This document shows, piece after piece, positions 173 to 30,814 of a stretch of 64,000 bases of DNA; within the stretch, counting starts at the first letter, position 1; each line of letters begins with the position of its first letter. This stretch comes from a virus, in IMG/VR virus record IMGVR_UViG_3300021197_000592, positions 1 through 64,000 of that record; one strand, given 5' to 3'. Below the pieces are notes generated by a model, which was not told where the DNA came from, did not search any database, and worked only from the letters and a program-made list of their open reading frames with translations. The translations under genes were made by a program, and so were the position numbers.

Positions 173-451
173 ATGGAATGGTTCGATAATGTGCGAAAAA
201 ATAGCATGAATGAGCGATTGTATGAGATTACGATGAGAAACAAGGCAAAATTAGACGTAATGTTGGATGAACACTATGAATTTGTCGAATCAGAGGTCAA
301 AAGGATGGTTTCTATGGGTATTTCCGAGGAAAATGCGAAAAAACTCGTTGCTGACATGAGTGAGGAGACTAGAAAGGTAATTTTAGATGGAATTGAGGAA
401 AATAAGAAGAATCTAGAGCGAATTATCTCTACTCAAATTATTGAAGAGTAA
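173..451 (+). CDS. Small Trp-tag protein, 92 aa, function unknown
   Basis: The protein opens with MEWFDNVRKN, a variant of the N-terminal Trp tag that recurs through the left 21 kb. The rest is charged and probably helical and matches no family I know. An in-frame ATG lies upstream at 125. I prefer 173 because GGTGA at 163-167 sits five bases before it and because the tag then falls at the N-terminus, as in its relatives. It is the first gene after the candidate promoter. The capsid-targeting role proposed for the tag is an inference. Confidence 0.7.
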   Translation: MEWFDNVRKNSMNERLYEITMRNKAKLDVMLDEHYEFVESEVKRMVSMGISEENAKKLVADMSEETRKVILDGIEENKKNLERIISTQIIEE

Positions 452-503
452 ATTTCGATAATTCAGAACAATAAAGTGTTACCTTCAAGTGGAACTCGTT
501 TAG

Positions 504-767
504 ATGGTAGAGGATTCTCAAAATGAGTTGGGAAATGACCCTTCTAAATTGATTGAGTTGTCAAGGGATGAAAATGACTGGTTTACCGTGCTTAGAGGGG
601 CAGGAGCGGTAACTAGCACATCAGCAGGAACGGCTCCGTTGTTCAATATCTCGTATGGAAAGTATTTGAGAGTAAAACCGAAGAAAAAGAAGAAACTAGA
701 GGGAACCATCTTTGAGAATTTAGAGAAAGATGGGGAACATGAGGAGGGATGTGGTTGTGGCTGCTAA
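504..767 (+). CDS. Small protein with internal Trp motif and Cys-Gly tail, 87 aa
   Basis: Unrecognised. Residues about 24-33 read DENDWFTVLR, an internal copy of the tag-like motif. A lysine-rich patch (KPKKKKK) lies in the middle and the protein ends in EEGCGCGC. The alternating Cys-Gly end could bind metal or form disulfides, but no family is assigned. The end overlaps the candidate start of the next gene. Confidence 0.6.
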   Translation: MVEDSQNELGNDPSKLIELSRDENDWFTVLRGAGAVTSTSAGTAPLFNISYGKYLRVKPKKKKKLEGTIFENLEKDGEHEEGCGCGC

Positions 768-1890
768 GAAGTTGAAGAAGGACAGAGTTTCCCTTAATCT
801 CGGCAAGTATAAGTTGAATTCTCGTAGGAACTACAAATTGTTCACCAAGGACTGGTCTAATTGGTTGCGAACCACGAAGGGACTCAGTGGGGATGCGATA
901 GGGAACGCCAAACTCAGTGAGTCACTATTCGATATGGTTGAGGGTCAGGGAATCTCAGGTCGTCAGGCTGGTAACAGCGGTCCTGATGGCGAGCCTTGGT
1001 CAAGAGATGCGATAGCAGACATGAGAGACATCGAGAAGTTCTTCCGAACTCAGAACTACAGCGAGGAGCATCTGAATAAACTGATGGCACTGGACAAGCA
1101 GATGGATGATTGGAAGAACAGTAGTGAGGTCGGTGGAGGAAATGCGGCTAACATCAAGTTCACACAACCTGCTGCATGGGATGACGAGGATGGAACCATT
1201 GCCGAGTATGAGTTTGTCTATGGTCACTATCTGACAGACAAGTATGTCGAGTATCGAAACAACTTCAAGGATGATAATCTGTCTGCTGTTTCCTCTGAGT
1301 GGTATTCTGACACGCCCGGAAGCGCTAGGCCTCCGATGTGGCAAGCAATGTATGCAGAGGGGAACTTCCTCGGTAAGAACTCGATGAGTCTGCATAAGAT
1401 AATCAAGGATGCAATCAAAGACCTACAGGAGTTGGACTTTGAGTTAGACCAATCCACGCCAATTCCAATCGAAGGACAAGGCAGTGCGAAACTAGCCTTG
1501 GAGATTCCTGAGATTGCCAAGATGTTCAAGATGATGGTTGACCATGAGGAGTACACCACAAGCAGTGGTAACTTCGCAACGACAAGAGCGGCTAGTCAAA
1601 TCAAGAACGTTCCAATCATGCTCAAGACGAACAGGGAGGTCAACATCGTCAAGAGGATAGCAGATGAGATGGGTGGAATACCCAACGACATAGAGAAGAT
1701 ATTCATCACGATGTCAAGGAGGCAGATGGCTAACATGGCGAAACTCGCTGGATGGAAGCCACATCCAGAATCGACCTACATGAAGAGGAAGAAGAGAGAG
1801 GCCGAGGAAGCACAGGAGACTGATGAGGTGAAGACCAGTGCTGATGTCGAGGAGACTGATTGGAGAACCATAATGAAGGTGAATGCATGA
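757..1890 (+). CDS. Unknown protein with C-terminal Trp motif, 377 aa
   Basis: No family is recognised. The N-terminus is basic (KKLKKDR), KDWSNWLRTTKG lies near residues 29-40, and the body is mixed helical. The C-terminus is Glu/Lys-rich and ends in TDWRTIMKVNA, a copy of the Trp motif at the opposite end from most relatives. I chose GTG at 757 because GGAGG at 743-747 is nine bases upstream. ATG at 730 or 739 in the same frame is possible and would overlap the previous gene more. The stop overlaps the next start. Confidence 0.65.
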   Translation: MAAKKLKKDRVSLNLGKYKLNSRRNYKLFTKDWSNWLRTTKGLSGDAIGNAKLSESLFDMVEGQGISGRQAGNSGPDGEPWSRDAIADMRDIEKFFRTQNYSEEHLNKLMALDKQMDDWKNSSEVGGGNAANIKFTQPAAWDDEDGTIAEYEFVYGHYLTDKYVEYRNNFKDDNLSAVSSEWYSDTPGSARPPMWQAMYAEGNFLGKNSMSLHKIIKDAIKDLQELDFELDQSTPIPIEGQGSAKLALEIPEIAKMFKMMVDHEEYTTSSGNFATTRAASQIKNVPIMLKTNREVNIVKRIADEMGGIPNDIEKIFITMSRRQMANMAKLAGWKPHPESTYMKRKKREAEEAQETDEVKTSADVEETDWRTIMKVNA

Positions 1891-1976
1891 AATTACCATG
1901 CTGTGGAGTGAACGTTTCAAATGATAACTATGCAATGGCAATTTGCATGTATTGTTTTGGGAGAGGAAAGAAATGA
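1887..1976 (+). CDS. 29-aa cysteine micro-protein
   Basis: This tiny ORF, MKLPCCGVN...CMYCFGRGKK, is linked by ATGA overlaps to the genes on both sides, which is the main reason to believe it is translated. It has a CC pair and a CxxC pair spaced like half of a zinc ribbon. No function is known. It may instead be a coupling leader for the next gene. Confidence 0.45.
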   Translation: MKLPCCGVNVSNDNYAMAICMYCFGRGKK

Positions 1977-2200
1977 ATTGGAAGAGTAATGTAGAGAAGG
2001 CCATAGAGATTCTAGATTCAGATATGGTAGCAGAGAACAAGGTTGCTAGAGCCTTGGATTTCCTTGTAGCGTCATTGCGAGTGGGTATAGCGATGGAGCA
2101 TGAGAACAGAATGGAGAAAGCAGACTGGTTTGAAACCATCAAGGGAGATTGCGGAACTCACAAGATTGACGATGAGGAAGATGAGGAGGAGATGGATTAG
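1973..2200 (+). CDS. Small protein with Trp motifs at both ends, 75 aa
   Basis: The start is MNWKSNVEKAIEIL, a relaxed version of the N-terminal tag. A second copy, KADWFETIKGD, lies near the C-terminus and is followed by an acidic tail (DDEEDEEEMD). An in-frame start further upstream exists, but the ATGA overlap with the preceding micro-ORF and the tag favour 1973. The next gene begins immediately after the stop. Confidence 0.65.
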   Translation: MNWKSNVEKAIEILDSDMVAENKVARALDFLVASLRVGIAMEHENRMEKADWFETIKGDCGTHKIDDEEDEEEMD

Positions 2201-2689
2201 ATGAGTTGGTTTGAGATATTGAAGGAACTATCGGATTATGAGAGAGCAGTAGCGGAGGAGTTCGCTACAGATGAGGATATGGATAGACCTGACTACAGTA
2301 AGACTGGTCCGTTTGCAAACATGCCTGAGTTTCCGAAGATGAGAACCAAGGATTCCACTACACAAGACGAGGATGCCAAAAGGAGAACAGAGGAGAACGA
2401 AGCAGAACTCCTCGCTCGCTTGAAGGCACGAAACCAGAAGAGCAGAGAGAGGATAGGCAAACAAGTCCCGATTCCACCACCGCCTACTGGTGGCCCTATG
2501 CCCCCACCCCCACCGATGGATGGTATGGGAATGCCACCACCACCAATGGGGATGCCACCAGAGCAGCCGGAGAAGCCGGTAGTCAATCCAGAGAACGCAT
2601 CGGAATTTCCCGTTGACCCTGAGCAGGATGACGACATGGAAGACAAGACTGGTATCAGAGTGAAGAAGTGGTTTGAACAGTTGAAGTGA
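2201..2689 (+). CDS. Trp-tag protein with Pro/Gly/Met-rich linker, 162 aa
   Basis: Opens with a textbook tag, MSWFEILKEL, and ends in VKKWFEQLK, so the motif is present at both ends. Between them are an acidic/charged segment and a low-complexity proline-glycine-methionine stretch (about residues 88-125), which should be disordered. No enzymatic family is visible. The architecture suggests a flexible tether between two short binding helices. Confidence 0.75.
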   Translation: MSWFEILKELSDYERAVAEEFATDEDMDRPDYSKTGPFANMPEFPKMRTKDSTTQDEDAKRRTEENEAELLARLKARNQKSRERIGKQVPIPPPPTGGPMPPPPPMDGMGMPPPPMGMPPEQPEKPVVNPENASEFPVDPEQDDDMEDKTGIRVKKWFEQLK

Positions 2690-2693
2690 TAGC

Positions 2694-3881
2694 ATGAATT
2701 GGATGACTGTGCTAAAGCAAACCGAGGATGACCCCGGTAACGTCAACACGGCGGCTAATGCACAGGCACAAGAAAACGCGAGAAAGCAAAAAGCGGCTGA
2801 ATTGGAACAGCAGAGGACTGCCAGCGCTAGGGCTAGGAACACGACTTCTCCTGTGCAAAGCCAAATGCCAGCAAGAGCAAGACAGGCTACTGATTTAGCA
2901 GGACGGGGAGCGAGGGCTTTGGGTCGCATGGGTAGCAACTATCTTGATGATATGAGAAACACTGCTCTACCGATTTCCAGTAAAGATGTGCTAAGGCAGA
3001 ATCAACTGTCAGGAGCGGCACAGGGAGCAAGAGCAGATGCAAAGTCTGGTAAGAACACCTACTACCAAGATGTGTACGGTGTTGACCCTTCAAGTTCAAA
3101 GGAACTAGGAGGAGCGATTGCCCAAGACAGAGCAGGGTATGAGGAATTCTTGGAGAGTGGTGCTGAGGGATTGGACACTAAAGATGTGGCAACTCAAGGT
3201 TGGCGTGGTAAGGTGAAGGGAGCGTTGGGTTTCGGTCCAACGGCCTCTGACCAAGCAAGAGCATCTTCCGCAAATCTAGAGTTGTATAGGCAACAGCAGA
3301 AACAACGTATGGAAAGGGACAAGATGGCTGATGAGGCCACTGCTAGAGCGCAACAGACAAAGAAGCCAATGGGTGGTCAATATGATGCTCTACTTGAAGC
3401 CGCAGGAAAACTAGAACAACCCGCATTGGATGACAAGGGTAAGATAAATCCAGCATTTGTAGAAGAAGCACAAACTGCAAGAGATGTTTTGGAGGAGAGC
3501 AATCAAGGATTATCACAACAGGCGCAAGAACAATTGCAAGCCCCTAGTTCCACACAATCGACAGATTGGCAAGGAGAAATCAGAGATGATGGACAGGCTA
3601 CTTTTGGTTCTAGTATTGTAACTGATGGTTCGGAAGAATCTCCGGCGGCTAAAGCGGCAAGAGAAGCCGAGCAAAAGAGGCAAGCGAACAAACCAAAAAC
3701 CAAGCAAACTAAACTAGGTAGGAATCTGAAAGGACACTGGTTGCCGGGTTATGGTGGTAGCAAGAACGTAGCCGCAGTTACGAATTTAGAGAGAACAAAG
3801 AACGTCAGACAAGACCTTGCTGATAAAAGAAAGAGAGAGCAAGAATCTATGTCTGGTAAACAAGGAACATTGGATGTGTGA
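2694..3881 (+). CDS. Trp-tag protein, Ala/Gln-rich, 395 aa
   Basis: Starts MNWMTVLKQTEDD (tag). The body is rich in Ala, Gln, Arg and Lys with many coiled or disordered stretches, and no domain is recognised. The composition resembles internal virion or ejection proteins more than an enzyme, but that is inference. The stop overlaps the start region of the next gene. Confidence 0.75.
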   Translation: MNWMTVLKQTEDDPGNVNTAANAQAQENARKQKAAELEQQRTASARARNTTSPVQSQMPARARQATDLAGRGARALGRMGSNYLDDMRNTALPISSKDVLRQNQLSGAAQGARADAKSGKNTYYQDVYGVDPSSSKELGGAIAQDRAGYEEFLESGAEGLDTKDVATQGWRGKVKGALGFGPTASDQARASSANLELYRQQQKQRMERDKMADEATARAQQTKKPMGGQYDALLEAAGKLEQPALDDKGKINPAFVEEAQTARDVLEESNQGLSQQAQEQLQAPSSTQSTDWQGEIRDDGQATFGSSIVTDGSEESPAAKAAREAEQKRQANKPKTKQTKLGRNLKGHWLPGYGGSKNVAAVTNLERTKNVRQDLADKRKREQESMSGKQGTLDV

Positions 3882-3883
3882 TG

Positions 3884-4777
3884 ATGGCTTGGTTTGATTT
3901 GGTTAGAAAAGACTTCTATTTCGGAGACAATGACCCTAACGCGGCTAATCTTGCATATCAACAACAAATGGAAGCGGCGGCACAGAATCCAGATACGATG
4001 GCTAGATTAAGAGCAGAAAGCCGTGCAAGAAACGAAAAAAGGAGTCAACTTGCGAACTTAGGTAGTGGTAAAGAATATGGGTATGCTAGAAACAGGACTC
4101 CATTTTTCGGAACTAATCTTTCAGCAGTCGGTAGAAAGGGAAAAGACCTGCAAGAGAAAGAGTGGTTCAAGGATGAGGATGAAATGGAGGATTACTACAC
4201 TGATATGATTAGTGAGATAGAAACACATGAGGGTACGCATCAAGCAATGAAACCAGCCCTGAGAGATGCGGCTAATGAGGAAAGACAAAAGAGAATTGAA
4301 GAGGCCAAGAAAAGAGGAATTAAGGTTCTCAGAGATAATGAAAGTAAACAAGGTGTGACTAATCTTGAGAATCCTACTCCCCAACAGCATCGAGGAGGAA
4401 AAAACTACTACGAATCAGATGCGAGTCTTCCCACTGAACCTTCTTTCTTCGACAAGGTAAGAAGAAGAAAGATTGCACCAGAGAGTGAATTCAATGTTAA
4501 ACCCGGCCAAATGTCTGAATGGGAGGAGAAGGGTGCTGGCACTGCTCAATTCTACACTCCGGCTCGCGGTGACAAACCGTGGACTAGTGCTACTAACTAT
4601 CCTTACTCATCAACAAGAGTTGACCCTGCGAAGTTCAAAGACCCGCGAGCAACTCAAGACCCCAAACAAATGAGGGACATGCAAATAGATGGCGGATATC
4701 AAGAAATACAAAGAGACAGGGAACAAAGGCAGAAACCATTCAATGAGTATTATGACACAGGGAGGGCTTCGTTTTGA
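3884..4777 (+). CDS. Trp-tag protein, Arg/Glu/Asn-rich, 297 aa
   Basis: Tag MAWFDLVRKDFY at the N-terminus. Three in-frame starts are adjacent (GTG 3878, ATG 3881, ATG 3884). I take the last because it gives MAW, as in the gene at 6716. The rest is highly charged, low in hydrophobic residues and probably partly disordered. No family is recognised. The stop overlaps a TTG start in the next gene. Confidence 0.72.
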   Translation: MAWFDLVRKDFYFGDNDPNAANLAYQQQMEAAAQNPDTMARLRAESRARNEKRSQLANLGSGKEYGYARNRTPFFGTNLSAVGRKGKDLQEKEWFKDEDEMEDYYTDMISEIETHEGTHQAMKPALRDAANEERQKRIEEAKKRGIKVLRDNESKQGVTNLENPTPQQHRGGKNYYESDASLPTEPSFFDKVRRRKIAPESEFNVKPGQMSEWEEKGAGTAQFYTPARGDKPWTSATNYPYSSTRVDPAKFKDPRATQDPKQMRDMQIDGGYQEIQRDREQRQKPFNEYYDTGRASF

Positions 4778-5430
4778 TTACTAGAAAGAGATGCTCACTT
4801 TGCAATCACGAAGACCGTGACCAACTAGAGCATGACTTGGAGTCTATGGCTATCACTTCCGATGAGTTGGACAATCGAATGAACTGGCCTAGTGGCACAT
4901 CATCAAGACATCAGAGGAATCACATGGCTGGTTACACCAACACATCAAACCCAAGGTGCAAGATATGCATACATCCGATTCGCATAGAGATAGAGAAGCA
5001 AGTGCATGATGGGATAATGACACCAACGACTGCGGCAGAGGTAGTCGGTTGTTCGGAAGACCAAATCATGCGACACATGAAGCATCATCTACAACCACTA
5101 GTGCAGCAATCAGCAGCACAACTAATCGCACAGAAGGATGTCGATGAGATTGGAGTTCTCAGTAGCAACATCACTAGGCTTGAGTCGAAGGTTGACGACT
5201 TGTTCGCAGAGGATGGCCTCGACCCCAAGTACATCGACTCGCTGACCAAGTTGGCGAAGGAGATTCGTGAGAGCCTCAAGTACCTCATGGAGTTCAAGGG
5301 CAAGTTGGTTCACAAGAGGCAAGACACAATTATAGTTCATCAGATGCAAGTTATCAAGGAGGTTCTAGCACAGAACCATCCTGAAGTTTGGCTAGATGTC
5401 AGAAAGCAAATGGAGAGTAAGATGCAATGA
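4774..5430 (+). CDS. Tandem Cys/His zinc-finger protein, candidate small terminase
   Basis: Starts with TTG in a TTGA overlap. Two similar modules occupy roughly residues 6-52 and 61-106. Each begins CxxCxH (CSLCNH, CKICIH) and ends with a His cluster (RHQRNHM, RHMKHHL), with a helix-turn-helix-like middle in the second (TTAAEVVGCSEDQIMRH). The C-terminal half is helical and may oligomerise. Zinc-bearing DNA-binding modules of this layout occur in small terminase or regulator proteins of tailed viruses. Without a fold search the terminase role is tentative, and the gene lies 8 kb from the large subunit. It lacks the Trp tag. Confidence 0.6.
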   Translation: MITRKRCSLCNHEDRDQLEHDLESMAITSDELDNRMNWPSGTSSRHQRNHMAGYTNTSNPRCKICIHPIRIEIEKQVHDGIMTPTTAAEVVGCSEDQIMRHMKHHLQPLVQQSAAQLIAQKDVDEIGVLSSNITRLESKVDDLFAEDGLDPKYIDSLTKLAKEIRESLKYLMEFKGKLVHKRQDTIIVHQMQVIKEVLAQNHPEVWLDVRKQMESKMQ

Positions 5431-5792
5431 ATTGGAAAGATATTCTTCTGAAGGACACTAGTACAGCAACTAGGAGTGCTGACCTGTGGGTCATGAATAG
5501 CGAGGAGAATTACTTTCCAATCATACAACTCATTAAGCAGAAGGTGAAATCTTATTTGGATTGGGGTTGGTCTAAGGAAGAAGTAGTAGAGGATATCCTG
5601 AATGCCGTAGCAAAGGAATTGCCTGAGATGCTATCCCAACACAAGGGATTCATGGACGAGTTGTTATCTCCTGTAGATGATAGGGATGAACAGGGAGATA
5701 GCATATCGGATGTGGATTGGCTAGAGGTTGCTAGGAATTTTGAAGAGGATATTGAAGATGCTATGGGGGATTATCCGGAGGAATGGCAATGA
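5427..5792 (+). CDS. Trp-tag protein, 121 aa, with WQ C-terminus
   Basis: Starts MNWKDILLKDTS in an ATGA overlap. The last residues, EDAMGDYPEEWQ, closely resemble the end of the following protein (ENPMRDYAEKWQ). The two genes therefore share both their N-terminal tag and their C-terminal tail while differing in the middle. No family is recognised. Confidence 0.72.
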   Translation: MNWKDILLKDTSTATRSADLWVMNSEENYFPIIQLIKQKVKSYLDWGWSKEEVVEDILNAVAKELPEMLSQHKGFMDELLSPVDDRDEQGDSISDVDWLEVARNFEEDIEDAMGDYPEEWQ

Positions 5793-6055
5793 GTTGGAAA
5801 AATCTAGTTAAAATTGAAGATTATGATACTCTTTCCTATCTAACTAGAGAATCATTAGATTCACTTAAAGATTTAGAAAGACAGTTATTTGAAACAATAT
5901 ACAAGTTACAGTCAAGTAAACTAGGTAGTAACTTAAGGGATAAACCGGAATCAAACCTTGATTTCCAATTTCTTTTACAGTTCAAGAGGCAGTTGGGAGA
6001 ACTTCTGTATGACATTGAAAATCCTATGAGAGACTACGCGGAGAAATGGCAATGA
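5789..6055 (+). CDS. Trp-tag protein, 88 aa, with WQ C-terminus
   Basis: MSWKNLVKIEDYD start. An ATG two codons upstream (5783) is possible, but 5789 gives the ATGA overlap used by most neighbours. The body is helical and AT-rich compared with flanking genes, suggesting different ancestry. The tail ENPMRDYAEKWQ is shared with the previous gene. The junction DNA TGGCAATGAGTTGG is repeated identically at both ends of this gene. Confidence 0.7.
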   Translation: MSWKNLVKIEDYDTLSYLTRESLDSLKDLERQLFETIYKLQSSKLGSNLRDKPESNLDFQFLLQFKRQLGELLYDIENPMRDYAEKWQ

Positions 6056-6711
6056 GTTGGAGCGAAAACAAAGATTGGTTTAATGTGTTAAAGGCTCCAC
6101 GGCCTTTTCGTGATGATACAGGAGCAAAAAGAACGAAGGGAAATATTCCATATTATACATATGATGAATTAGATGATACGGAAAGAGAACAGGCTGACAG
6201 AGGATTGGGAATACAGGCTGACAAGGATGCACGTGCAAGGATGAAAGACCCATCATTGCAAAGCCGCATAGAAATGGAGATGCGAAGAAAGGGAAAACGT
6301 GCAGGGAAGAAAGAGGCTAGAACAAGACTCACGGAAGAAGCGAGAGAAGACCTAGAAGGAAAGAAAGGTGAAAGAGCATTCATGGGAAGAGGGCGCGAAC
6401 CCGGATTGTATGGTCGTTCCGCAGGATATGACATAGACACAGACGAGGGTGTTGCAACGTATGAGTCAGGGTACAAAGGAGCAGAGAGATTCAGGGGATT
6501 CAAACCCGTTCAACTGACTAATTTTTTAAAGGGTGTACTGAGAGAGAAGGGAAAGAAAGAAAACATCGAGTCAAAATTTAGACAAGCCATAGATGACTAT
6601 ATGCGAAATGGTGGTAAGTTTGAGAGACAACACATAACTCTACTGAACAAGGCTGGTCTTGGTGGTTCTGTTATGATGGACATAGTGAGAGACAATTTAG
6701 CAAGAAGGTGA
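6052..6711 (+). CDS. Trp-tag protein, basic, 219 aa
   Basis: The N-terminus reads MSWSENKDWFNVLKAPR, with a degenerate tag followed directly by a good copy (KDWFNVLK). The body is very rich in Arg, Lys and Glu. A helical C-terminal third (FLKGVLREKGKKENIESKF) looks like a compact domain. No known family. Start chosen by the ATGA overlap; ATG 6046 is the alternative. Confidence 0.7.
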   Translation: MSWSENKDWFNVLKAPRPFRDDTGAKRTKGNIPYYTYDELDDTEREQADRGLGIQADKDARARMKDPSLQSRIEMEMRRKGKRAGKKEARTRLTEEAREDLEGKKGERAFMGRGREPGLYGRSAGYDIDTDEGVATYESGYKGAERFRGFKPVQLTNFLKGVLREKGKKENIESKFRQAIDDYMRNGGKFERQHITLLNKAGLGGSVMMDIVRDNLARR

Positions 6712-6715
6712 GACA

Positions 6716-8371
6716 ATGGCATGGGAGTCTTTGTTGAAAGTCAGGCGATTCTTGTCTGATGACGAAGTTAAGATTGCACATGCACTTATTGTGGCAAAGG
6801 CATCTGGTGACCCACTAGATTTGTCAGAATATGAAACACCAGAGAAGAAGAGAACCATCACTATGTTCACTAAGAAGATAGAGCGCGTTGAAGACAAGGA
6901 GTTTGAAGAGAAGTTCCAACAGGTAAAATGGAAGTTGGGAGACAAGGAAGACTACTTGAGAATGCTCAAAGAATATAGACAAACGCAACCTACCCCCAAA
7001 GAAATTGACAAACCGTATCTAAAAGATAAGATTGAGGACTTCTTAGAGGGAAACCACGATGGTCTTTTAGAATTGATAGAAAGGAGTAAAAGAAAGGGAT
7101 TAATTTCTGCTATTCAGAATTGGAATAAAGTCAACAATGATACCTTGAGGGAGTACGTCAAGGACAAGCCCGAACTCGCTGAGAAGATGAAGAAGGTGTT
7201 CAGGCAACTGGAATCATCTGAGGAGATGAAGAGGCAGGTGTCTCCTGCTTCGATTGGGGATGACGTTGCTGCGGAATATGTCAAGATGGTGGTGAATGAT
7301 TTGAAACTAGCATCTACTGGTAATGAGATGAGACTAGGAAAGGAGTCCTACTTGCCAATAAGAGAGGGGTTGTCTCCTAACTTCGCACGTAAGTTGTTTG
7401 GGTTGGGAGCGAATCAAGGAGGGAACCTCCCACCTGTAACCATGTATATTCTAGAGAATGACTCAGTTAACTTTGAGGAGTTCATGGCTGTTGCTGATAC
7501 AAAGTCAAGCACAGTCAAGGAGATGCTGTACAATAAACTCAGGCGAAGCGAGTTCGATAATGACATTCAAGAGGAATGGGATAGAAGCGAAAGCATTGTG
7601 TCGTTTGAGAATACGGTAGCGGCAGACAGGGAGATGAGCAAGGAATTCAAATCCATGTTGGCTAACTTGGGAGAAGGCATGAAAGTAGAGGATGTAACTA
7701 CAGATGTGAAATTCTCCATGCCGAAGGATGACTATGACAAGATGATGAGCGGAAAGTGGGATGAGTCCTTGGAGACATATGGGATAAACTCCGATGACGC
7801 ATTGGAGGACTTGTTGGATGTGCATGAGGAGGACTTGAAGAAACTACAGGAGAAGGTCAAGGGTTTCGTGAGGCTAGTTGACATGGAGACAAAGAAGAGG
7901 TTGGAGGACTCCGAACTCCTACAGGATGAGGGAATAGAACTCTGGAACAATGATGGCTCATTGAAGCAGATAACAACCGAGGAGACTGGTGAGAAGGCTT
8001 TCCCGAAATACCTGCAAACTCTTGCCGAGATAGACAATCCTACCAGAGCCGTATTCCTAGCCGCAGAGGGAAACAAGAACCAAGTGATGCTAGGAGACTT
8101 CATTCTCTACTTAGCAAGAGCAGAACTATCATATCAAGAAAGGACAAGTGATGTGAGAAGCGCGGTCAATGCCTATGCTAAAGAGCAAAGCGATGAGAAC
8201 AAGAAAAAACTAGATGACGAACTCTCCACTGCTAAGTACAAAGAGATTAGAAACGACATGCTACTAGCGATAAAGGAGAAGATGGCAACGCTTCTCAGTG
8301 AGTATGATACTAACATGTTGCACGAAAGAAAGACTATAGAACCGTTGGATTGGTTGAGGGAGAACATATGA
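6716..8371 (+). CDS. Large Trp-tag protein, helical, 551 aa
   Basis: Begins MAWESLLKVRRF (tag) and ends in PLDWLRENI, a tag-like C-terminus. The sequence is almost entirely predicted helix with many Glu/Lys/Leu heptad-like stretches and no catalytic motif I can see. With the next gene it forms a pair of large unknown proteins whose size and composition would suit internal or ejection proteins. That is inference. Confidence 0.75.
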   Translation: MAWESLLKVRRFLSDDEVKIAHALIVAKASGDPLDLSEYETPEKKRTITMFTKKIERVEDKEFEEKFQQVKWKLGDKEDYLRMLKEYRQTQPTPKEIDKPYLKDKIEDFLEGNHDGLLELIERSKRKGLISAIQNWNKVNNDTLREYVKDKPELAEKMKKVFRQLESSEEMKRQVSPASIGDDVAAEYVKMVVNDLKLASTGNEMRLGKESYLPIREGLSPNFARKLFGLGANQGGNLPPVTMYILENDSVNFEEFMAVADTKSSTVKEMLYNKLRRSEFDNDIQEEWDRSESIVSFENTVAADREMSKEFKSMLANLGEGMKVEDVTTDVKFSMPKDDYDKMMSGKWDESLETYGINSDDALEDLLDVHEEDLKKLQEKVKGFVRLVDMETKKRLEDSELLQDEGIELWNNDGSLKQITTEETGEKAFPKYLQTLAEIDNPTRAVFLAAEGNKNQVMLGDFILYLARAELSYQERTSDVRSAVNAYAKEQSDENKKKLDDELSTAKYKEIRNDMLLAIKEKMATLLSEYDTNMLHERKTIEPLDWLRENI

Positions 8372-10977: not shown

Positions 10978-10981
10978 TTAG

Positions 10982-11770
10982 ATGGCAGAGTTTCAGATTT
11001 CACCTCCATTGTCGGAAGATGAGGTCAAAGCGCGTTTTGCAGAACACGGCATAGACTACCAAACGAGAGCAGATAGATACCAGATGCTCACTAATACTCC
11101 CTTTGGTCAGGCCAATCCGAAGTATTACATTGCATACTACCCAACGGTAGAAGACGGTAAGCCAATTGCAGTTCAAGGAATCGCACCATACAAGAACGTC
11201 TATCTTCTAACTGGTTTGAAAAGCCACGCGAAGGAGTCTGGTCTTAGCAAAGAAGAGACAAGGGGTGCTGGTAGTTGGATATCAAACAAAGTAATTGACA
11301 TGCATAGTAACAGACCAATCGTAGGAGCGGCAAAACCAGCAGGTGTACCAGTTTTTGAACAACAGGGATTCAACCCCATACAATTTGACTCAAATAACAA
11401 GGTCATGAACCAAGATGATATCCCTGACGACATAAGAGAGGTCTTCACGATGTTGGAGAATGAAGGAAGTTCGACAACCGCAATCAGGAAACTATTCTAC
11501 AAACCAAGCATACAATGGTTCGCCCTAGTCAAAGCACAATGCAAGGGACCAACGAAGAAGACCAGTTCAACTTCCAAGGGCAAGAAGTGGATGAAGTGCG
11601 TCAGCAAACCCGGTGGAGGATACAAGCGAGTTCATTGGGGACAGAGGGGAGTAACAGTATCAGGCAAGAGGTCAGGCAAGAGGAGAAAGTCATTCAGGGC
11701 TAGACACAAATGTTCCACTTGCAAGGGTGGTGACAACTCCCCTAGATGCATGGCTTGTAGGGATTGGTGA
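10982..11770 (+). CDS. GNAT-like domain fused to marine-virus Cys motif, 262 aa
   Basis: Residues about 1-160 have the feel of a GNAT acetyltransferase fold: AVQGIAPYKNVYLLTGL, then GAGSWISNKVIDMH, then VPVFEQQGFNPI, as in beta5 and the C-terminal strand. The acyl-CoA loop is not convincing, so activity is uncertain. A tag-like IQWFALVKAQ at about 179-188 marks the domain boundary. The C-terminal part has KRRKSFRARHKC and CMACRDW, resembling a short conserved tail seen in marine phage proteins. Confidence 0.6.
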   Translation: MAEFQISPPLSEDEVKARFAEHGIDYQTRADRYQMLTNTPFGQANPKYYIAYYPTVEDGKPIAVQGIAPYKNVYLLTGLKSHAKESGLSKEETRGAGSWISNKVIDMHSNRPIVGAAKPAGVPVFEQQGFNPIQFDSNNKVMNQDDIPDDIREVFTMLENEGSSTTAIRKLFYKPSIQWFALVKAQCKGPTKKTSSTSKGKKWMKCVSKPGGGYKRVHWGQRGVTVSGKRSGKRRKSFRARHKCSTCKGGDNSPRCMACRDW

Positions 11771-11774
11771 TAGC

Positions 11775-12755
11775 ATGGAACTCTGGTTTGAGGACTTGAA
11801 GAAGAAGAAAGATGCTTGCTATCGCAAGGTCAGGAGCCGATACGACAAGTGGCCTTCTGCATATGCGTCAGGTGCGTTGGTACAGTGCCGAAAGGTCGGC
11901 GCAGCAAATTGGGGTAACTCAAAAAAAAAAGCATTGACCAAAGCAGAGTCAAAATGGGTAGATAAACTACCAGACGACAAGCAGAAACTTCTGGAAAAGA
12001 CTCCTAGTTTCGATGTGACATTCCCTGAGTATTCACATCCATCCAACGAGGAGGAACTCCCCAAGGTCATCGAGATGATGAAGGATAAGAAAATCGATGA
12101 GAGTGAGATAGAAGACCTAGACATGAACAACCATGAGATGATGTTGAAGATAGTCGGGGAGGAGATGGAAGATAGGGAGAAACTAATCGAGGACATCGAT
12201 ATCCACATAATCAAACTCAAGATGAAGTACAGAAGACCTAGACCGTATGAGATATCCGATAAGATAGAATCCATGACTAGCACGGATGACACACCGTCAT
12301 TCCCAAGTGGACATGCAACAGAATCGTATGCCCTTGCGAAGATACTAGGGAAGGAGCATCCCGATAAGCAGAAGGAACTCAATGAGATGGCAGAGAAGAT
12401 ATCCATGTCAAGGATACAGATGGGAAATCATTTCCCAAGTGATGTCGAGACTGGGAAGAAAGTCGGTGCATTGATTGCTGATGCGTATCTTGATTCGGAT
12501 AAAGTCAGTAAGAGTTGGCAGGAAGTAATATCCAAGGATTGGGTTAGTTGTTCGTCTTGCACAGATGACAAACCCGGAACAGAGCCTTGTGGTAGGAAGG
12601 ATGCATCAAAGGGACAGAAGAGAAGATGCAGACCGACTTGCTCTGCTTGTAGAGACTACAAGAGAAGGGGCGGAAAGCCGAAGAAAAGAAAGGCCGGAAC
12701 GTTCAGTAGAGAGAAGGACGAGGGGCTTCACGGTTGGTTCAAGAGGAGGGGTTGA
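11775..12755 (+). CDS. PAP2-superfamily phosphatase with flanking Cys motifs, 326 aa
   Basis: The three PAP2/haloperoxidase-type acid phosphatase signatures are complete and correctly ordered: K-x6-RP (K149 to P157), PSGH (177-180), and SR-x5-H-x3-D (S212, R213, H219, D223). No transmembrane segments are evident, so a soluble phosphatase is likely. The substrate is unknown. The N-terminus MELWFEDLKKKK is a tag variant. It is followed by CYRKVRSRYDKWPSAYASG, a motif I associate with many marine virus proteins. The C-terminus carries PCGRK...RRCRPTCSAC, another Cys module. Start 11775 is the first ATG after the upstream stop that gives the tag. Confidence 0.78.
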   Translation: MELWFEDLKKKKDACYRKVRSRYDKWPSAYASGALVQCRKVGAANWGNSKKKALTKAESKWVDKLPDDKQKLLEKTPSFDVTFPEYSHPSNEEELPKVIEMMKDKKIDESEIEDLDMNNHEMMLKIVGEEMEDREKLIEDIDIHIIKLKMKYRRPRPYEISDKIESMTSTDDTPSFPSGHATESYALAKILGKEHPDKQKELNEMAEKISMSRIQMGNHFPSDVETGKKVGALIADAYLDSDKVSKSWQEVISKDWVSCSSCTDDKPGTEPCGRKDASKGQKRRCRPTCSACRDYKRRGGKPKKRKAGTFSREKDEGLHGWFKRRG

Positions 12756-12818
12756 ATGAGTTGGTTCGACATCCTAAAAATAAGTGGACCGCCTAACATA
12801 TTCGGAGGTAAGGCCTGA
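12756..12818 (+). CDS. 20-aa peptide consisting mainly of the Trp tag
   Basis: This tiny ORF encodes MSWFDILKISGPPNIFGGKA. It starts on the base after the phosphatase stop, and its own stop overlaps the terminase start (TGATG). The first eight residues match the tag of the 182-aa protein at 19195 exactly. It could be a free tag peptide, a decayed gene, or a translational-coupling leader for the terminase. The exact tag and tight spacing make chance unlikely. Confidence 0.6.
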   Translation: MSWFDILKISGPPNIFGGKA

Positions 12819-14260: not shown

Positions 14261-14269
14261 GTGAATACA

Positions 14270-15604
14270 ATGGGAGAAAAAGGAGATAAACTCAGGGAGA
14301 TGGCTTCTCTCGCTGATGAGGAACAAACCCTAGTTGAAGAGCAGAAGAGGCTCTCTGACGAACTCAAGAGGTCTTGGTTATCAGAGCAGAACACGACCAA
14401 TCACTTTGACATAGAGAAGAAGTTCGCAGTAGAATATAGCATCTCCCTATCAGATGCCAAAAAGCAACTCAATGACGAGTTCAAGAAGTATGAGGTAGAG
14501 GGCAAGGACATTCCATCCCTCATCAAGGAACTCAAGGATTACCGAAGAACATTGAAAGGAGAGCAAAAGATAGCCATCACGGAATCGATTGACAATCTAA
14601 TCAAAGGATACGCATCTCATTTGGATAATACAATAGACAGAATATACTGGATTGCCAAGTACAAACCTGTAGTCAAGGAGATGGTTTGTTCCGAAGAGCA
14701 ACTAATCAAACTCTCATACATACATGACGAGAACACTAGAAGAGATGCGATTGATTCTCTATGCAAGTATTGGGAAGCCAAGTTGCATAGAGCAGATATA
14801 CCATATAACTCCGATTACTCATCCCTGTCGAAAGAAATGACAAATGGGAAGAGGGAGTTCAAGAAGATAATCAAGAATCATATGCCGAGCATCAGCCCGA
14901 AGGAGGTAATCAAACAAGAGATTCTTCACGCTGTCTGTGAGGAACCCGGCATATCGGCTAGACAGATTCATGAGAGACTACCGAAGAACCTGTTCAAGAA
15001 AACCTCGCCTAGTATAATTTCAAAGATGGCTAGGACTCAGAACATTACCACGATTGACGGTGCTTTCTACAAATTCAGTGATGAAATAAAGAAGGATATC
15101 TATGCATACACTGCCGCTTTCATAGACTCTGATGGATACATTACAATGGATAAAAACTTTAATCCAAGAGTCGGCCTAGTAGCAACAGGAGACAGGGGTA
15201 AGGCGTTCATGTTGGAGATGCACAAGTCCCTTGGGTGTGGTAGATTGCATCTAGACCAGAAATCCCCACAGGATACCAAACCTGTCAACAGACTAAACTT
15301 CTACTCTGCGGCGGATGTAAATGAGATTCTTACAAAATGCAAACCCTTCTTGAAGATGAAAGGAGCAAATGCAGACATACTATTGGAATTACTTAGAATG
15401 AAGAAGTCGCACAAGAAGGCAGAGTGGTACAAACCACGAAGGCAAGAGTTGTTTCAACTGATGAAGTACGAAAACCACAAAGACAATGCCAACTATGATT
15501 TTATTCAATATGGCATAGACAGAGACACAGTATCCAAATTCCATGAAAACTCTAAGATGACAGAGATGGATGTCATTGAAGGGGTCATAAAGACGGAGGC
15601 ATAG
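14270..15604 (+). CDS. Free-standing LAGLIDADG-type homing endonuclease with HTH
   Basis: The C-terminal half contains AYTAAFIDSDGYITM (about residues 277-291), a LAGLIDADG helix. It is followed by a typical alpha-beta core (RVGLVATGDRGKAFMLEM, KPFLKMKGANADILLELL). One copy is seen, so a dimer is expected. The N-terminal half is helical and contains a winged-helix-like segment (EEPGISARQIHERLPK) that may bind DNA. It sits between terminase and portal, a common site for such elements. ATG 14270 follows GGTGA by five bases; GTG 14261 is the alternative. Whether it still cuts is unknown. Confidence 0.8.
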   Translation: MGEKGDKLREMASLADEEQTLVEEQKRLSDELKRSWLSEQNTTNHFDIEKKFAVEYSISLSDAKKQLNDEFKKYEVEGKDIPSLIKELKDYRRTLKGEQKIAITESIDNLIKGYASHLDNTIDRIYWIAKYKPVVKEMVCSEEQLIKLSYIHDENTRRDAIDSLCKYWEAKLHRADIPYNSDYSSLSKEMTNGKREFKKIIKNHMPSISPKEVIKQEILHAVCEEPGISARQIHERLPKNLFKKTSPSIISKMARTQNITTIDGAFYKFSDEIKKDIYAYTAAFIDSDGYITMDKNFNPRVGLVATGDRGKAFMLEMHKSLGCGRLHLDQKSPQDTKPVNRLNFYSAADVNEILTKCKPFLKMKGANADILLELLRMKKSHKKAEWYKPRRQELFQLMKYENHKDNANYDFIQYGIDRDTVSKFHENSKMTEMDVIEGVIKTEA

Positions 15605-15605
15605 T

Positions 15606-17243: not shown

Positions 17244-17362
17244 GTCAACTGCTTGAAACCGCGAGAAGATGGAAAGAAGAGATTGACAAACTGAATAAAG
17301 AGACAGACGAGAGAATCAGATTATTTACGGAGGAAGGAATATGGAATGGCAAGAAATATTGA
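17240..17362 (+). CDS. Possible 40-aa coiled-coil peptide (TTG start)
   Basis: A TTG in a TTGA overlap with the portal stop opens a frame encoding a Glu/Lys/Arg-rich helix (LLETARRWKEEIDKLNKETD). It overlaps the next small ORF by 22 nt. Start type and overlap match other genes here, but the length makes it uncertain. Confidence 0.4.
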   Translation: MSQLLETARRWKEEIDKLNKETDERIRLFTEEGIWNGKKY

Positions 17363-17466
17363 AAAAAAATGCAAAGCCCGATTTTATTGACATCGATGGA
17401 GATGGTGATAAGGAAGAGCCAATGCAGGATGCAGTAAAAGACAAGAAAGGTGAAACAAATGAGTGA
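17341..17466 (+). CDS. Trp-tag micro-protein, 41 aa
   Basis: ATG 17341 follows GGAGGAAGG closely. The protein is MEWQEILKKNAKPDF followed by an acidic DIDGDGDKEEP stretch and a short charged tail. The tag is nearly canonical. The Asp repeat looks like half of an EF-hand loop but lacks the closing Glu at position 12. It overlaps the next gene by ATGAGTGA. Confidence 0.6.
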   Translation: MEWQEILKKNAKPDFIDIDGDGDKEEPMQDAVKDKKGETNE

Positions 17467-17683: not shown

Positions 17684-17687
17684 TTGA

Positions 17688-18875
17688 ATGTCATTCATGG
17701 ATATCCTCAGAAAGCAGGGTGAGGAAGTCCAATCTGACATATACGACTTGAAGGGAAACTTAACCCCCAAGCAATTGAGAGATGCGGCAGAGACATGGGA
17801 GAAGTACGGGGAGAACTTCGGTCCAAATCTGCTGACTCAACCAGCACCGCTGGAAGATAAGAGAGCAAGAGAAGGAGGAGACTTGAGAAACAATCCGGGT
17901 TTCATGGCCGATGCTACCAAAGCACTACAGATGATTGAGTCACTACCATCGGCTTCCACAGAAGAGGAGTTGATGTCTCCTGAATATCAAGCAAGAGGAG
18001 AGATAGAGGAAGTTCTAGAGATACTTCAAGAGAACTTCATCAAAGAAATAGAGAGAAGAGCAGGACAGAAGAAAACCTTCGTTAGTAGAAAGATGAATGC
18101 TGATAGCCTAGAGGAAATACTACGAATGGTTTCAAAGTTCAACAGTCCAGCAGAGATGGAAGAAAAGTTTCCGAACAAGAAGAAGTTCGCAAAGGAATGG
18201 TCTACACAGTTTGCAACATTCAAGGATAAGATAAACGAGTTCCTCTATCTAGGTGAGAGAATAGCACAGCCCGTTCGTGAGGTGTATCTAGAGAATCCAA
18301 TCAGACTCGCTAGGTTCGATGATGACAAGAAGGAATGGATGCAAGAGGATGAACTAGGATACAAGATGTACAATGGCAAGACATCCAAGGAAGTATGGGA
18401 AGACTTGCTGAACTTCTTGGGTATGGAAGCAATGACACCATACGACAAGAAAGAATCCAGAAGCCGATTAGAGAGATACGTTCGATTCGATGAGAGCAAC
18501 TTAGATGAACTATTCAATCTCATTAAAGAAGACAACTTGATGGAAGCATTTCCTGCTCTGTTTGAAGAATCATCATTCGATGACTTGGAGAGCGCATTAT
18601 ACTTACTTATAGAAGACGTAATGGAAATGCATGACGACTACTTGGATGCAGACGGAGAGGATGAAAAGATAGAGGAGAACATCGAGAAGTACCTCACAGC
18701 AATAGAGTTCCTGATGCATGTGTTTGAGATAACGAGAAGGGATGATTTCATCAACGATGGAGTTGTAAACGAACTCAAGGAGATAGAGGAACCAAGGCCA
18801 TTCCAGTTCCACAGGGAATTCAGAAACATAATAGAGGCCCATGATTTGTACGATGAAGAGGAGGAAGACGAGTGA
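17688..18875 (+). CDS. Trp-tag-like protein (Phe variant), 395 aa
   Basis: N-terminus MSFMDILRKQGEE is the tag with Phe in place of Trp. The body is long, acidic and helical, ending in DEEEEDE. No family is recognised. It overlaps the following gene by GTGA. It resembles the 551- and 869-aa proteins in composition, though I cannot show homology by eye. Confidence 0.72.
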   Translation: MSFMDILRKQGEEVQSDIYDLKGNLTPKQLRDAAETWEKYGENFGPNLLTQPAPLEDKRAREGGDLRNNPGFMADATKALQMIESLPSASTEEELMSPEYQARGEIEEVLEILQENFIKEIERRAGQKKTFVSRKMNADSLEEILRMVSKFNSPAEMEEKFPNKKKFAKEWSTQFATFKDKINEFLYLGERIAQPVREVYLENPIRLARFDDDKKEWMQEDELGYKMYNGKTSKEVWEDLLNFLGMEAMTPYDKKESRSRLERYVRFDESNLDELFNLIKEDNLMEAFPALFEESSFDDLESALYLLIEDVMEMHDDYLDADGEDEKIEENIEKYLTAIEFLMHVFEITRRDDFINDGVVNELKEIEEPRPFQFHREFRNIIEAHDLYDEEEEDE

Positions 18876-19198
18876 GTTGGCAAACAATCCTGAAAGCAAA
18901 TGGTCTAGTGGATAAACTTGACCCAAAGGAGAAGAAGAAGATAAAGAAACTCCTACAGTCTGCTCAACCGTCTGAGTTCATGGGTCAGGAGATAACGCAG
19001 TTGTCTGATTTGCTGACTGCGATGAAGGGTATTGGCTTGGTGAAGAACGACAAGAACATGCAGAAGAAGTTTGAGAAGTTCGATGAAAACAACTTAGACC
19101 TAGTTGCCACAGCATCCGAATTACGGAAGGACTATGAAACACTTTACAACCAGTTGAGAGCAGAGATTTATCCAAAGAAGAAGGGGAAGTTAGAATGA
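18872..19198 (+). CDS. Trp-tag protein, 108 aa
   Basis: GTG start in a GTGA overlap gives MSWQTILKANGL. The remaining sequence is helical, Lys-rich at the end (YPKKKGKLE) and unrecognised. The stop overlaps the ATG of the next tag gene. Confidence 0.72.
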   Translation: MSWQTILKANGLVDKLDPKEKKKIKKLLQSAQPSEFMGQEITQLSDLLTAMKGIGLVKNDKNMQKKFEKFDENNLDLVATASELRKDYETLYNQLRAEIYPKKKGKLE

Positions 19199-19743
19199 GT
19201 TGGTTTGACATACTAAAGTTGTATGGTAATGAAGACGATTATATTCCTGAAGCAATGCGTGAGTTACTTGAAGAGAACGAGTCGCTACAAGATAAATATG
19301 TTAGTTTCATGGATGAACTCAACTATGAGGTATATCAACTAGGAGAAAAAATGGCTAAGATAGCAGAGGAGGATAATCTCGATGATTATGCTACGAAAGC
19401 CATTGACAAGTATATGAACATGAATGTAACTGGCGGTGAACACTTTGAGGATGTATACCAATCAGTCTCAGATGAATACTATACAAGGAAAAGGGATGCA
19501 GGGGAAGAGGAAGACTCAGCCCCTCAACTTGAGTATGGTAATAAGAACCAAAAAACATTAGAAGCCTTAGAAGATTTCCAAGGTCAGTATTATGAAAACG
19601 AATGGACTGATTATCGAACAAACAGAGAGTTGTCTGCATTAATGGCGGCAGTAAGTCGTGGCGATACTGATAATCTAGAAGGAGAATTCCCTGAAGCATA
19701 CCTTATTTTTAATGAAGCCGGACTACTTAATGAGTTGGAGTGA
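19195..19743 (+). CDS. Trp-tag protein, acidic, 182 aa
   Basis: Canonical tag MSWFDILKLYGNEDD. The body is acidic and helical with several Tyr residues, and no enzyme motif is visible. This gene and the next two are more AT-rich than the surroundings, consistent with separate acquisition. Confidence 0.72.
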   Translation: MSWFDILKLYGNEDDYIPEAMRELLEENESLQDKYVSFMDELNYEVYQLGEKMAKIAEEDNLDDYATKAIDKYMNMNVTGGEHFEDVYQSVSDEYYTRKRDAGEEEDSAPQLEYGNKNQKTLEALEDFQGQYYENEWTDYRTNRELSALMAAVSRGDTDNLEGEFPEAYLIFNEAGLLNELE

Positions 19744-19748
19744 TTGAA

Positions 19749-20078
19749 ATGAGTTGGAAAGATATAATCAAAAATGAAAGAGGGTTCTACACTGACAAAG
19801 AGAATGCCAAGGAGAAAGCAAAGAGCCTACCGAGGATGAAGAAAGAGTTGGATAAAACACTTACAGAATTGAAAATGCTTGTAGATGAAATAGGCGGAGA
19901 CGAAATGGATAAAATGTTCGATGGCCCTGATGGTCAAGAGGTAGGAAGCACTACTCAACTGATGGAAGACTTCAATGAGTTCAAGAAAAAGGTTGAAGAT
20001 GCATATGAGGATGCTTTAATATTTAACACTCAACTTGCAGAAATGTCATTTAATGAAGCAAGGTATGGTAGGCGATGA
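19749..20078 (+). CDS. Trp-tag protein, 109 aa
   Basis: Tag MSWKDIIKNERGF. A start three codons upstream (19740) is possible but would hide the tag. The start context TGATTGAAATGAGTTGG recurs in related form at neighbouring genes. Lys/Glu-rich helical body, unrecognised. Confidence 0.7.
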   Translation: MSWKDIIKNERGFYTDKENAKEKAKSLPRMKKELDKTLTELKMLVDEIGGDEMDKMFDGPDGQEVGSTTQLMEDFNEFKKKVEDAYEDALIFNTQLAEMSFNEARYGRR

Positions 20079-20079
20079 A

Positions 20080-20583
20080 ATGAGTTGGCAAGATATCCTG
20101 AAAGACATGGATGCAGAAGAGGAATTTGAGAGAGATGCTCTAAGAAGAGATATTGAAGCGGAGCGATATTCAGAGTCCTATCAAAGCCCTAATTTCAAAA
20201 AGGTTGAAGAGAAGTTGAGGGAGTTAGTGAATATCACTATTCCACAAGATGAGCGAATGTTACAAATTGTAATGAGTGCAGGATTCAAAGAACCACCAGT
20301 CACTAGACAACAACTAACATCTGCTACAAGGAAGATTTATCAAGATTTGAAAGAACTTGATAAGATAAAGAAAGAAGCCAAGGAGTATGCAGATAAAAAC
20401 CCAAAATCCGGTCCTTACGATGACGAATTGATTAATGATGTGTTTAAGGATTCAAATTCAGAATACGCTACTGATAGGGGTTTTGAAATGTTAATGGGTA
20501 ATAAAATTGAAGATATACGCTTAGGCTTCGCTAACACGATAACGAGCAACATGCAACAATACAAGCAATTGTTTGAAAAGTGA
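20080..20583 (+). CDS. Trp-tag protein, 167 aa
   Basis: Tag MSWQDILKDMDAEEE. The open frame extends 15 codons upstream into the previous gene, but the tag and one-base spacing after the preceding stop favour 20080. Helical, charged, no known family. Confidence 0.72.
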   Translation: MSWQDILKDMDAEEEFERDALRRDIEAERYSESYQSPNFKKVEEKLRELVNITIPQDERMLQIVMSAGFKEPPVTRQQLTSATRKIYQDLKELDKIKKEAKEYADKNPKSGPYDDELINDVFKDSNSEYATDRGFEMLMGNKIEDIRLGFANTITSNMQQYKQLFEK

Positions 20584-20588
20584 TTGAA

Positions 20589-20663
20589 ATGAACATGAAA
20601 GGAACACTAAAAAGAAATCTTAAGGAAAAACTAAATGAGTTCAGGAAGGAGGAAGAGGCATGA
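20589..20663 (+). CDS. Possible 24-aa basic peptide
   Basis: ATG 20589 follows the same TGATTGAA context used by neighbours and encodes MNMKGTLKRNLKEKLNEFRK plus a short acidic end. It terminates in an overlap with the next ATG. It could be a leader for coupling or a truncated tag gene, with TLKRNL loosely resembling the tag core. Confidence 0.4.
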   Translation: MNMKGTLKRNLKEKLNEFRKEEEA

Positions 20664-20893
20664 GTGACGAGAAGAACGAGATGCTACTGCTCCTGAAAGA
20701 ACTGGTTGGCAAGGTGAAATCCTTGGAAGAGGTCGTTTATCAGAAAGATAATCTACTGATGAAGAGTGGACTTGTTGTAGTCGATAGTCCACGACCAGCA
20801 ATAAGCAACGAACAATCAGGAATGTCAGGAGACACAATAGCGAAGATGGACTGGTCAGAAATCAATCAAATCATAGAGACAATAGAGGGATAG
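20660..20893 (+). CDS. Small coiled-coil protein with C-terminal Trp motif, 77 aa
   Basis: The N-terminal third is a leucine-rich heptad helix (LLLLKELVGKVKSLEEVV), likely oligomerising. The C-terminus KMDWSEINQIIETIEG resembles the scaffold C-terminus (ISWSDIHNIVERYQ) in spacing of Trp, acidic and hydrophobic positions. It may be a small scaffold or accessory protein. That is inference. Confidence 0.65.
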   Translation: MSDEKNEMLLLLKELVGKVKSLEEVVYQKDNLLMKSGLVVVDSPRPAISNEQSGMSGDTIAKMDWSEINQIIETIEG

Positions 20894-20894
20894 A

Positions 20895-21290
20895 ATGGCA
20901 AACTGGCAAAACTTATTGAAAGTTGACATTCGCAATCCTCAATTCAAAGAGTTACTGGATTCGCTTCCTCCTAAAGCGCGAAAAGAAATTGAATCGAGGA
21001 TGAAAGACCGTGATAGTAGTGAGGACAGCGTAAAGTATAACCTTCAAGTAGAGGGACTTCTAAGTGACCCTAAAGTAGAATCTATGCGAAATGAACTTGA
21101 ATCAATGAAAGAAAAAATGGATGATAAAGCATCTAAGTTGATGAGGTATATGTGGGATAACGACAAGAATCCTGTAGACTCGGATGACCCTGAAGTGGAT
21201 AGATTCGGCCCCGGATTCAAAGCCTCAGAGATACTAGGAAAAGAGATTAACGAGATACAAAGAGAATTTGGTGGATATAAACCGTGGTGA
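20895..21290 (+). CDS. Trp-tag protein, 131 aa
   Basis: Starts MANWQNLLKVDIRN, the tag shifted by one residue. Helical, acidic, no family recognised. It is the last clear N-terminal tag before the ligase and capsid genes. Confidence 0.7.
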   Translation: MANWQNLLKVDIRNPQFKELLDSLPPKARKEIESRMKDRDSSEDSVKYNLQVEGLLSDPKVESMRNELESMKEKMDDKASKLMRYMWDNDKNPVDSDDPEVDRFGPGFKASEILGKEINEIQREFGGYKPW

Positions 21291-30805: not shown

Positions 30806-30814
30806 GTGGGGTGA

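Follow-up and report, generated by a model that had tools for sequence, protein, structure and literature searches.

A tryptophan tag shared by unrelated proteins of a magrovirus-like virus resembles the tail of its own scaffold and may direct proteins into the capsid

The 64,000-nucleotide window analyzed here (bases 1–64000 of the 98,438-bp virus record IMGVR_UViG_3300021197_000592) encodes a series of otherwise unrelated proteins that open with the same short tryptophan-containing peptide, hereafter the tag, whose consensus in related viruses is M-S-W-x-[D/N/E]-[I/V]-[L/I/V]-K. The tag is a real, lineage-wide, position-flexible signal and is most likely a capsid-loading peptide copied from the C-terminal tail of the virus's protease-scaffold. 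We observe directly the tag, its distribution, its restriction to one strand, its conservation across exchanged protein bodies, and the match between its core residues and the scaffold tail. The first-pass annotation counted about 17 unrelated proteins with a shared N-terminal Trp tag, which is a fair count; every start that it listed opens an open reading frame (ORF) with an N-terminal Trp, or Phe in the case of 17688. It also proposed, by analogy with phage T4, a common signal and a shared destination, an idea that gains strength from the lineage-wide scaffold motif and the restriction to the morphogenesis strand, whereas its N-terminal-only and protease-processing parts found no support.

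When 84 tags from 11 genomes were combined into a profile, it matched this genome 23 times, compared with 4.2 times in shuffled proteins, and the strongest matches were the starts already listed. Searched as DNA in the 98-kb record, the tag yielded six forward matches, with none in reverse and none for the control. A slightly looser DNA pattern (ATG NNN TGG NNN NAN RTN NTN AAR) was applied to 24 related virus records, picked by their capsid protein alone: all 156 matches lay on the strand of the capsid gene, with none on the opposite strand and none for the reversed pattern, and nearly all relatives have the tag. The same pattern had no matches in HVTV-1, vir519, and vir335, which are more distant archaeal tailed viruses. 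Among the contigs recovered by scanning IMG/VR with tag DNA, without reference to the capsid, 18 of the 25 large ones encode the related capsid protein; of the remaining seven, four contain at least six tags each and resemble pieces of this lineage. Over 11 genomes, N-terminal tags open 82 of 638 ORFs on the morphogenesis strand versus 1 of 576 on the opposite strand (Fisher p = 5e-23), the ORF set being a mechanical one that includes spurious ORFs on both strands.

The bodies behind the tag are diverse. The tagged ORFs of 91 contigs number 324 and encode 251 different proteins, which fall into 108 clusters (72 singletons) whose bodies show no detectable homology. A logo of 98 family representatives reads M, S (67/98), W, [FEQK], [DN], [IV], [LIV], K (95/98). 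Few bodies contain a named domain, these being PAP2 and GNAT, and some are Lys-rich proteins; most remained unnamed in Pfam and PHROGs searches. In several families, but not in every one, conservation is clearly stronger in the tag than in the body. Absence of the tag from homologous genes had been put forward as a possible refutation; homologues of the tagged window genes in fact retain the tag or a close variant and, among the matches listed, those that fail the strict form have T, A, or N at the third position after the Trp (W+3), a shifted Trp, or a longer N-terminal extension.

The core of the tag recurs at the end of the protease-scaffold, whose gene lies directly upstream of the capsid gene:

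24230..25444, plus strand: S78-type prohead protease fused to a scaffold region (Pfam Peptidase_S78, 1.6e-9; PHROG head maturation protease, 2.7e-15)
25400..25420, plus strand: scaffold C-terminal motif ISWSDIH, with the sole Trp of the protease-scaffold, 11 residues from its end
25456..26826, plus strand: major capsid protein of the HK97 fold, the presumed docking partner (Pfam SU10_MCP, 2.5e-8)

In the window the protease-scaffold ends SEISWSDIHNIVERYQ. The scaffold Trp motif is present in 80/80 close relatives, 10–15 residues from the C-terminus, and the column frequencies over 65 sequences are M 0.83, S 0.92, W 1.00, D 0.94, I 0.80, and H 0.98, for a consensus of MSWGDIH. A second scan, of relatives at ~45–50% capsid identity, found a C-terminal Trp in scaffold-motif context in all 78 that could be tested, NEMSWDEIHDLFSKHKGGI being an example. 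When every non-N-terminal Trp of a genome (118–238 contexts) was scored by the similarity of its neighbors to the tag, the scaffold Trp took first place in 8 of the 11 genomes and never ranked lower than fourth. Residues 377–383 of the window protein (24230–25444) form a conserved [IL]PEG[FI]PT, ~10–15 residues before the scaffold motif, which is a possible maturation cleavage or hinge site.

Because the same peptide ends the capsid scaffold, the tag is most likely a ticket for loading into the head. In the mechanism that we propose, the scaffold tail M-S-W-x-D-I-H would probably be the second helix of a short helix-turn-helix and would dock on the capsid protein at its inner face, and the tag would be a capsid-loading (cargo) peptide imitating this shell-binding tail. 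Proteins that start with M-S-W-x-D-[I/V]-[L/I]-K, or that have its core placed C-terminally or within a linker, would bind this site or one overlapping it while the procapsid assembles and would be enclosed in the head. The bodies would be exchangeable: a PAP2 phosphatase, a GNAT acetyltransferase, and Lys-rich proteins are among them, as are many small acidic proteins. Some would probably be ejected into the host with the DNA, and others may only help to assemble the head. Docking on the capsid protein, encapsidation, and delivery are what we infer, and delivery into the host, a further step beyond loading, is the more speculative. Judged from the sequences, capsid loading by scaffold mimicry is a good deal more probable than its opposite. 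The wider proposal, that the scaffold tail became a portable address on more than 100 exchangeable proteins, at either chain end, so that a customized set of up to ~18 proteins per head is delivered to the host, has about an even chance of being correct.

A natural in-frame read-through that joins the scaffold tail to the capsid protein served as input for AlphaFold 2 (AF2). With 22 rows the model reached a predicted local distance difference test score (pLDDT) of 30; with 101 rows it had a good capsid core, and the tail formed, at low confidence, two short helices, with the Trp at the start of the latter. An AF2 model of the capsid protein from the relative L018 matches HK97-fold capsids by Foldseek, and a capsid-profile search of PDB sequences gave no matches. 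Three observations weigh against capsid loading by scaffold mimicry: the scaffold-tail helices are modeled at a pLDDT of only ~50–63, the tag (ILK) and the scaffold tail (IH) diverge beyond their common core, and many tagged proteins are acidic and without a recognizable domain, so that they could be assembly factors and not injected cargo.

The last of these bears on a second explanation, in which the tag recruits proteins to the head as it assembles, where they act as core or scaffold-like helpers that are destroyed or expelled and never become cargo of the mature virion. It is consistent with the 39 of 98 family representatives that are clearly acidic and with two motif-bearing proteins, the 77-amino acid protein and the 730–1890 family described below, that have the motif in nearly all genomes. 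However, PAP2 and GNAT enzymes and Lys-rich proteins are also tagged, and the tagged repertoire varies too much among relatives for obligatory assembly factors; we regard helpers as a possible but distinctly less favored account. It is also conceivable that tag and scaffold tail share a partner other than the shell, such as the portal, protease, terminase, or another core protein. Portals are also bound by scaffolds in known systems, and a possible small terminase (4774–5430) ends in the related HPEVWLDVRKQM; nevertheless, the shells of herpesviruses and P22 are bound by the extreme scaffold C-terminus, and up to ~18 tagged genes per genome suggests a partner with many sites. A non-shell partner was therefore judged unlikely.

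Among the starts originally listed, 13 carry a strong tag; the others are two weak tags (173 and 1973), a W-to-F variant (17688), and two displaced copies (6052 and 11775):

173..202, plus strand: weak N-terminal tag MEWFDNVRKN
1973..2002, plus strand: weak N-terminal tag MNWKSNVEKA
2201..2224, plus strand: strong N-terminal tag MSWFEILK
2694..2717, plus strand: strong N-terminal tag MNWMTVLK
3884..3907, plus strand: strong N-terminal tag MAWFDLVR
5427..5450, plus strand: strong N-terminal tag MNWKDILL
5789..5812, plus strand: strong N-terminal tag MSWKNLVK
6073..6093, plus strand: displaced tag DWFNVLK, nine residues into the protein 6052–6711
6716..6739, plus strand: strong N-terminal tag MAWESLLK (MTWHTVLK in the orthologue from G001)
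11775..11804, plus strand: variant N-terminal tag MELWFEDLKK of a PAP2-family protein (PAP2, 1e-11)
12756..12818, plus strand: 20-amino acid ORF MSWFDILKISGPPNIFGGKA, a strong tag plus a C-terminal remnant
17341..17364, plus strand: strong N-terminal tag MEWQEILK
17688..17711, plus strand: W-to-F variant tag MSFMDILR
18872..18895, plus strand: strong N-terminal tag VSWQTILK (GTG start), of the commonest tagged family
19195..19218, plus strand: strong N-terminal tag MSWFDILK
19749..19772, plus strand: strong N-terminal tag MSWKDIIK
20080..20103, plus strand: strong N-terminal tag MSWQDILK
20895..20921, plus strand: strong N-terminal tag MANWQNLLK

Homologues of the PAP2 protein at 11775 start MTLWFEELKK, VSWFDAIKE, or MDVWFEVLK, and at 17688 the variant position is F or Y in 7/7 resolvable homologues. 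The 18872 family has 71 homologues, four of which are cut by a contig edge; the tag is present in 53 of the remaining 67, and of the other 14, the distinct examples among the matches listed have variants such as MSWQYTLQK. The ORF at 12756 corresponds to a 273-amino acid gene of the relative G001 from which the body has been removed by an in-frame deletion that left the tag intact.

The tag had been supposed to be N-terminal, but it is not strictly so. The first list overlooked both the C-terminal copies, in 730–1890, 20660–20893, and, above all, the scaffold (24230–25444), and those that are internal:

576..596, plus strand: internal tag DWFTVLR in the protein 504–767
1858..1878, plus strand: C-terminal motif DWRTIMK in the protein 730–1890
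11513..11533, plus strand: internal tag QWFALVK in the protein 10982–11770
12513..12533, plus strand: second, internal tag SWQEVIS in the PAP2 protein 11775–12755 (score 16.4)
20846..20866, plus strand: C-terminal motif MDWSEIN in the 77-amino acid, coiled-coil-like protein 20660–20893

The 77-amino acid protein ends KMDWSEIN in the window and KM[DNE]W[SDE][EDQ]I[HN] in relatives, where its Trp usually ranks 2 to 6 by tag similarity. In the 730–1890 family (~380 amino acids), whose bodies fall to 22% identity, 10/10 orthologues end in DWRxxMK, NWxDxL (e.g., NWQDML), DWxxxx, or SWADILK. In G009 the tag of the 504–767 domain lies at the N-terminus; in G001 and G004 it is internal. In the 10982 family the tag is C-terminal in relatives, the G007 homologue being a GNAT acetyltransferase, and internal in the window, where a further domain has been appended; one relative of the PAP2 protein has the tag and the C-terminus without PAP2. 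A conserved helix-turn-helix protein beside the tagged genes (window 4774–5430), the possible small terminase mentioned above, has in its ending HPEVWLDVRKQM a distantly tag-like sequence 12 residues from the end. At residue 44 of the ligase-like protein, an internal Trp motif varies to W-x-x-T-V-K, and we excluded it as a tag.

These positions also bear on the idea that the peptide serves as an amphipathic membrane anchor or as some other host-directed address, and is no capsid signal at all. A short motif of W, I, and L would presumably suit an amphipathic membrane-binding helix, but its core also lies at the end of the protease-scaffold and of two further conserved proteins, as well as internally, and an anchor would leave unexplained the strong preference for D or N at W+2 and for K at W+5. 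We consider such an anchor very improbable.

Within the tag, the D, I, V, L, and K codons are synonymously varied and broadly near genome usage; therefore, selection acts on the peptide. Ser2 is different, being AGT in 97% of tags versus 29% genome-wide, a bias that suggests that the first nine bases of the tag were copied between genes. This apparent copying would fit a DNA- or translation-level gene-start element, or a single family diverged past recognition, with no common function. Against that, the downstream codons vary as described, AGC is never used in the tag because AGCT is missing from these genomes and would have been excluded anyway, the C-terminal copies in scaffolds have different Ser codons (TCT, TCA, AGT, and TCG), and the tagged bodies comprise unrelated folds. 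It is the least probable of the explanations that we considered. The tetranucleotides themselves are of separate interest: AGCT and GATC both have zero occurrences in the 98-kb genome, where ~370 of each are expected, and both are also absent from 10 other large records; over 80 loci (1.28 Mb) AGCT occurs zero times and GATC once. GTAC is missing from G001, G004, and G009, and ACGT from G009, and a few distant relatives, L186 among them, show no avoidance of AGCT and GATC. The absence of AGCT and GATC is probably restriction-site avoidance.

The plus strand of the window encodes terminase, portal, S78-type protease, SU10-type capsid protein, and an ATP-dependent ligase, and the minus strand in the remainder of the record encodes a split PolB, RFC, RNR, and a TFIIB-type zinc ribbon. 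Archaeal replisome genes thus lie opposite a Caudoviricetes morphogenesis module in a genome of 98 kb, within the ~90–110 kb of the Magrovirales, and by gene content and layout the window genome is that of a magrovirus-like archaeal tailed virus. Known magroviruses are likewise ~100 kb with PolB, RFC, TFB-like, and RNR genes opposite the morphogenesis strand (PMC10768690, PMC12999244); the Trp tag is unmentioned in the magrovirus literature examined. Among named capsid proteins, the nearest belong to haloarchaeal tailed viruses, e.g., HVTV-1 (Druskaviridae), at ~23% identity. Magroviruses are associated with Poseidoniales (PMC10768690, PMC12999244), and this ocean virus family with its tags probably infects Poseidoniales archaea. 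When bacterial and archaeal genomes were scanned for the capsid protein, only three contigs matched, in metagenome-assembled genomes labeled Maricaulis and Altibacter, and these were taken as misbinned; the host assignment therefore comes from gene content.

Several other features were seen along the way. The family B DNA polymerase consists of two ORFs (L087:6465-9661; genome ~70.5–73.7 kb, minus strand). Between terminase and portal, an ORF at window 14261–15604 without a Pfam match has an FIDSDGYI stretch like that of LAGLIDADG homing endonucleases. Tandem related proteins at window 59343–62718 have similar C-termini (NFNATRGRVGI, NFNSLRGRFGL, and NFAAHRVKFGL) and are probably repeated lectin-like surface genes. 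The portal gene of G013 (29805–31482) is in three separate fragments, possibly through insertion or frameshifts. The 184.7-kb IMG/VR record behind L246 (G030) contains two capsid genes ~91 kb apart, with 60% and 66% identity to that of the window, and is either a joined assembly or two genomes.

To our knowledge, viruses of Poseidoniales are known from metagenomes only. If capsid loading by scaffold mimicry is right, a sequence rule would tell, from metagenomes alone, which proteins of an abundant group of marine viruses travel in the virion and act first, narrowing much unknown sequence down to a small set of candidate effectors for the first strike against Poseidoniales archaea. The tag would also be a ready peptide for loading proteins into the HK97-fold capsid of an archaeal virus, and a natural case of scaffold mimicry.

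Encapsulins offer a partial parallel, since a short cargo peptide directs proteins into an HK97-fold shell (PMC10960027, PMC8346489). However, theirs is the dedicated cargo of a microbial compartment without viral scaffold, portal, or genome packaging, whereas the genome analyzed here is that of a full tailed virus with terminase, portal, and protease. As for a shell-binding scaffold of the herpesvirus or P22 type, the protease-scaffold here is encoded directly before the capsid gene and its extreme C-terminus is conserved. The herpesvirus UL26/UL26.5 protease is likewise fused to a scaffold with a conserved C-terminal peptide, through which it binds the capsid protein; sharing of that peptide with cargo is not described for herpesviruses in the part of the source available (PMC12474303), and the likeness claims no sequence relation. 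In P22, two C-terminal helices of the scaffold gp8 bind the coat N-arm, removal of the last 11 residues abolishes binding, and P22 is employed for programmed cargo encapsulation (PMC9965877); that loading is engineered, whereas here, if our reading is correct, it would be natural and on many genes.

The comparison with T4 is the one that prompted the original proposal. A 10-residue N-terminal peptide there loads internal proteins and foreign cargo, the bodies being diverse and host-directed (PMC3012670, PMC9026906). The capsid-targeting sequence of IPI, IPII, IPIII, and Alt resembles the tag in being an N-terminal peptide of ~10 residues on diverse small proteins with a fast-changing repertoire, suited to loading into the procapsid core, and the 108 body clusters found here likewise have a short N-terminal peptide in common. 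The systems differ in that the tag also occurs C-terminally and internally, the motif ends the scaffold, more than 100 body clusters are involved, the virus is archaeal, and there is no conserved protease site of the kind at which the prohead protease removes the T4 peptide: a check for processing near the tag had been suggested, and judged by sequence conservation only, no residue after ~W+7 is conserved in the 98 families. The T4 peptide also appears to differ from the tag in sequence. By analogy, then, the tag would work like the T4 targeting sequence, and the likeness drawn is one of function.

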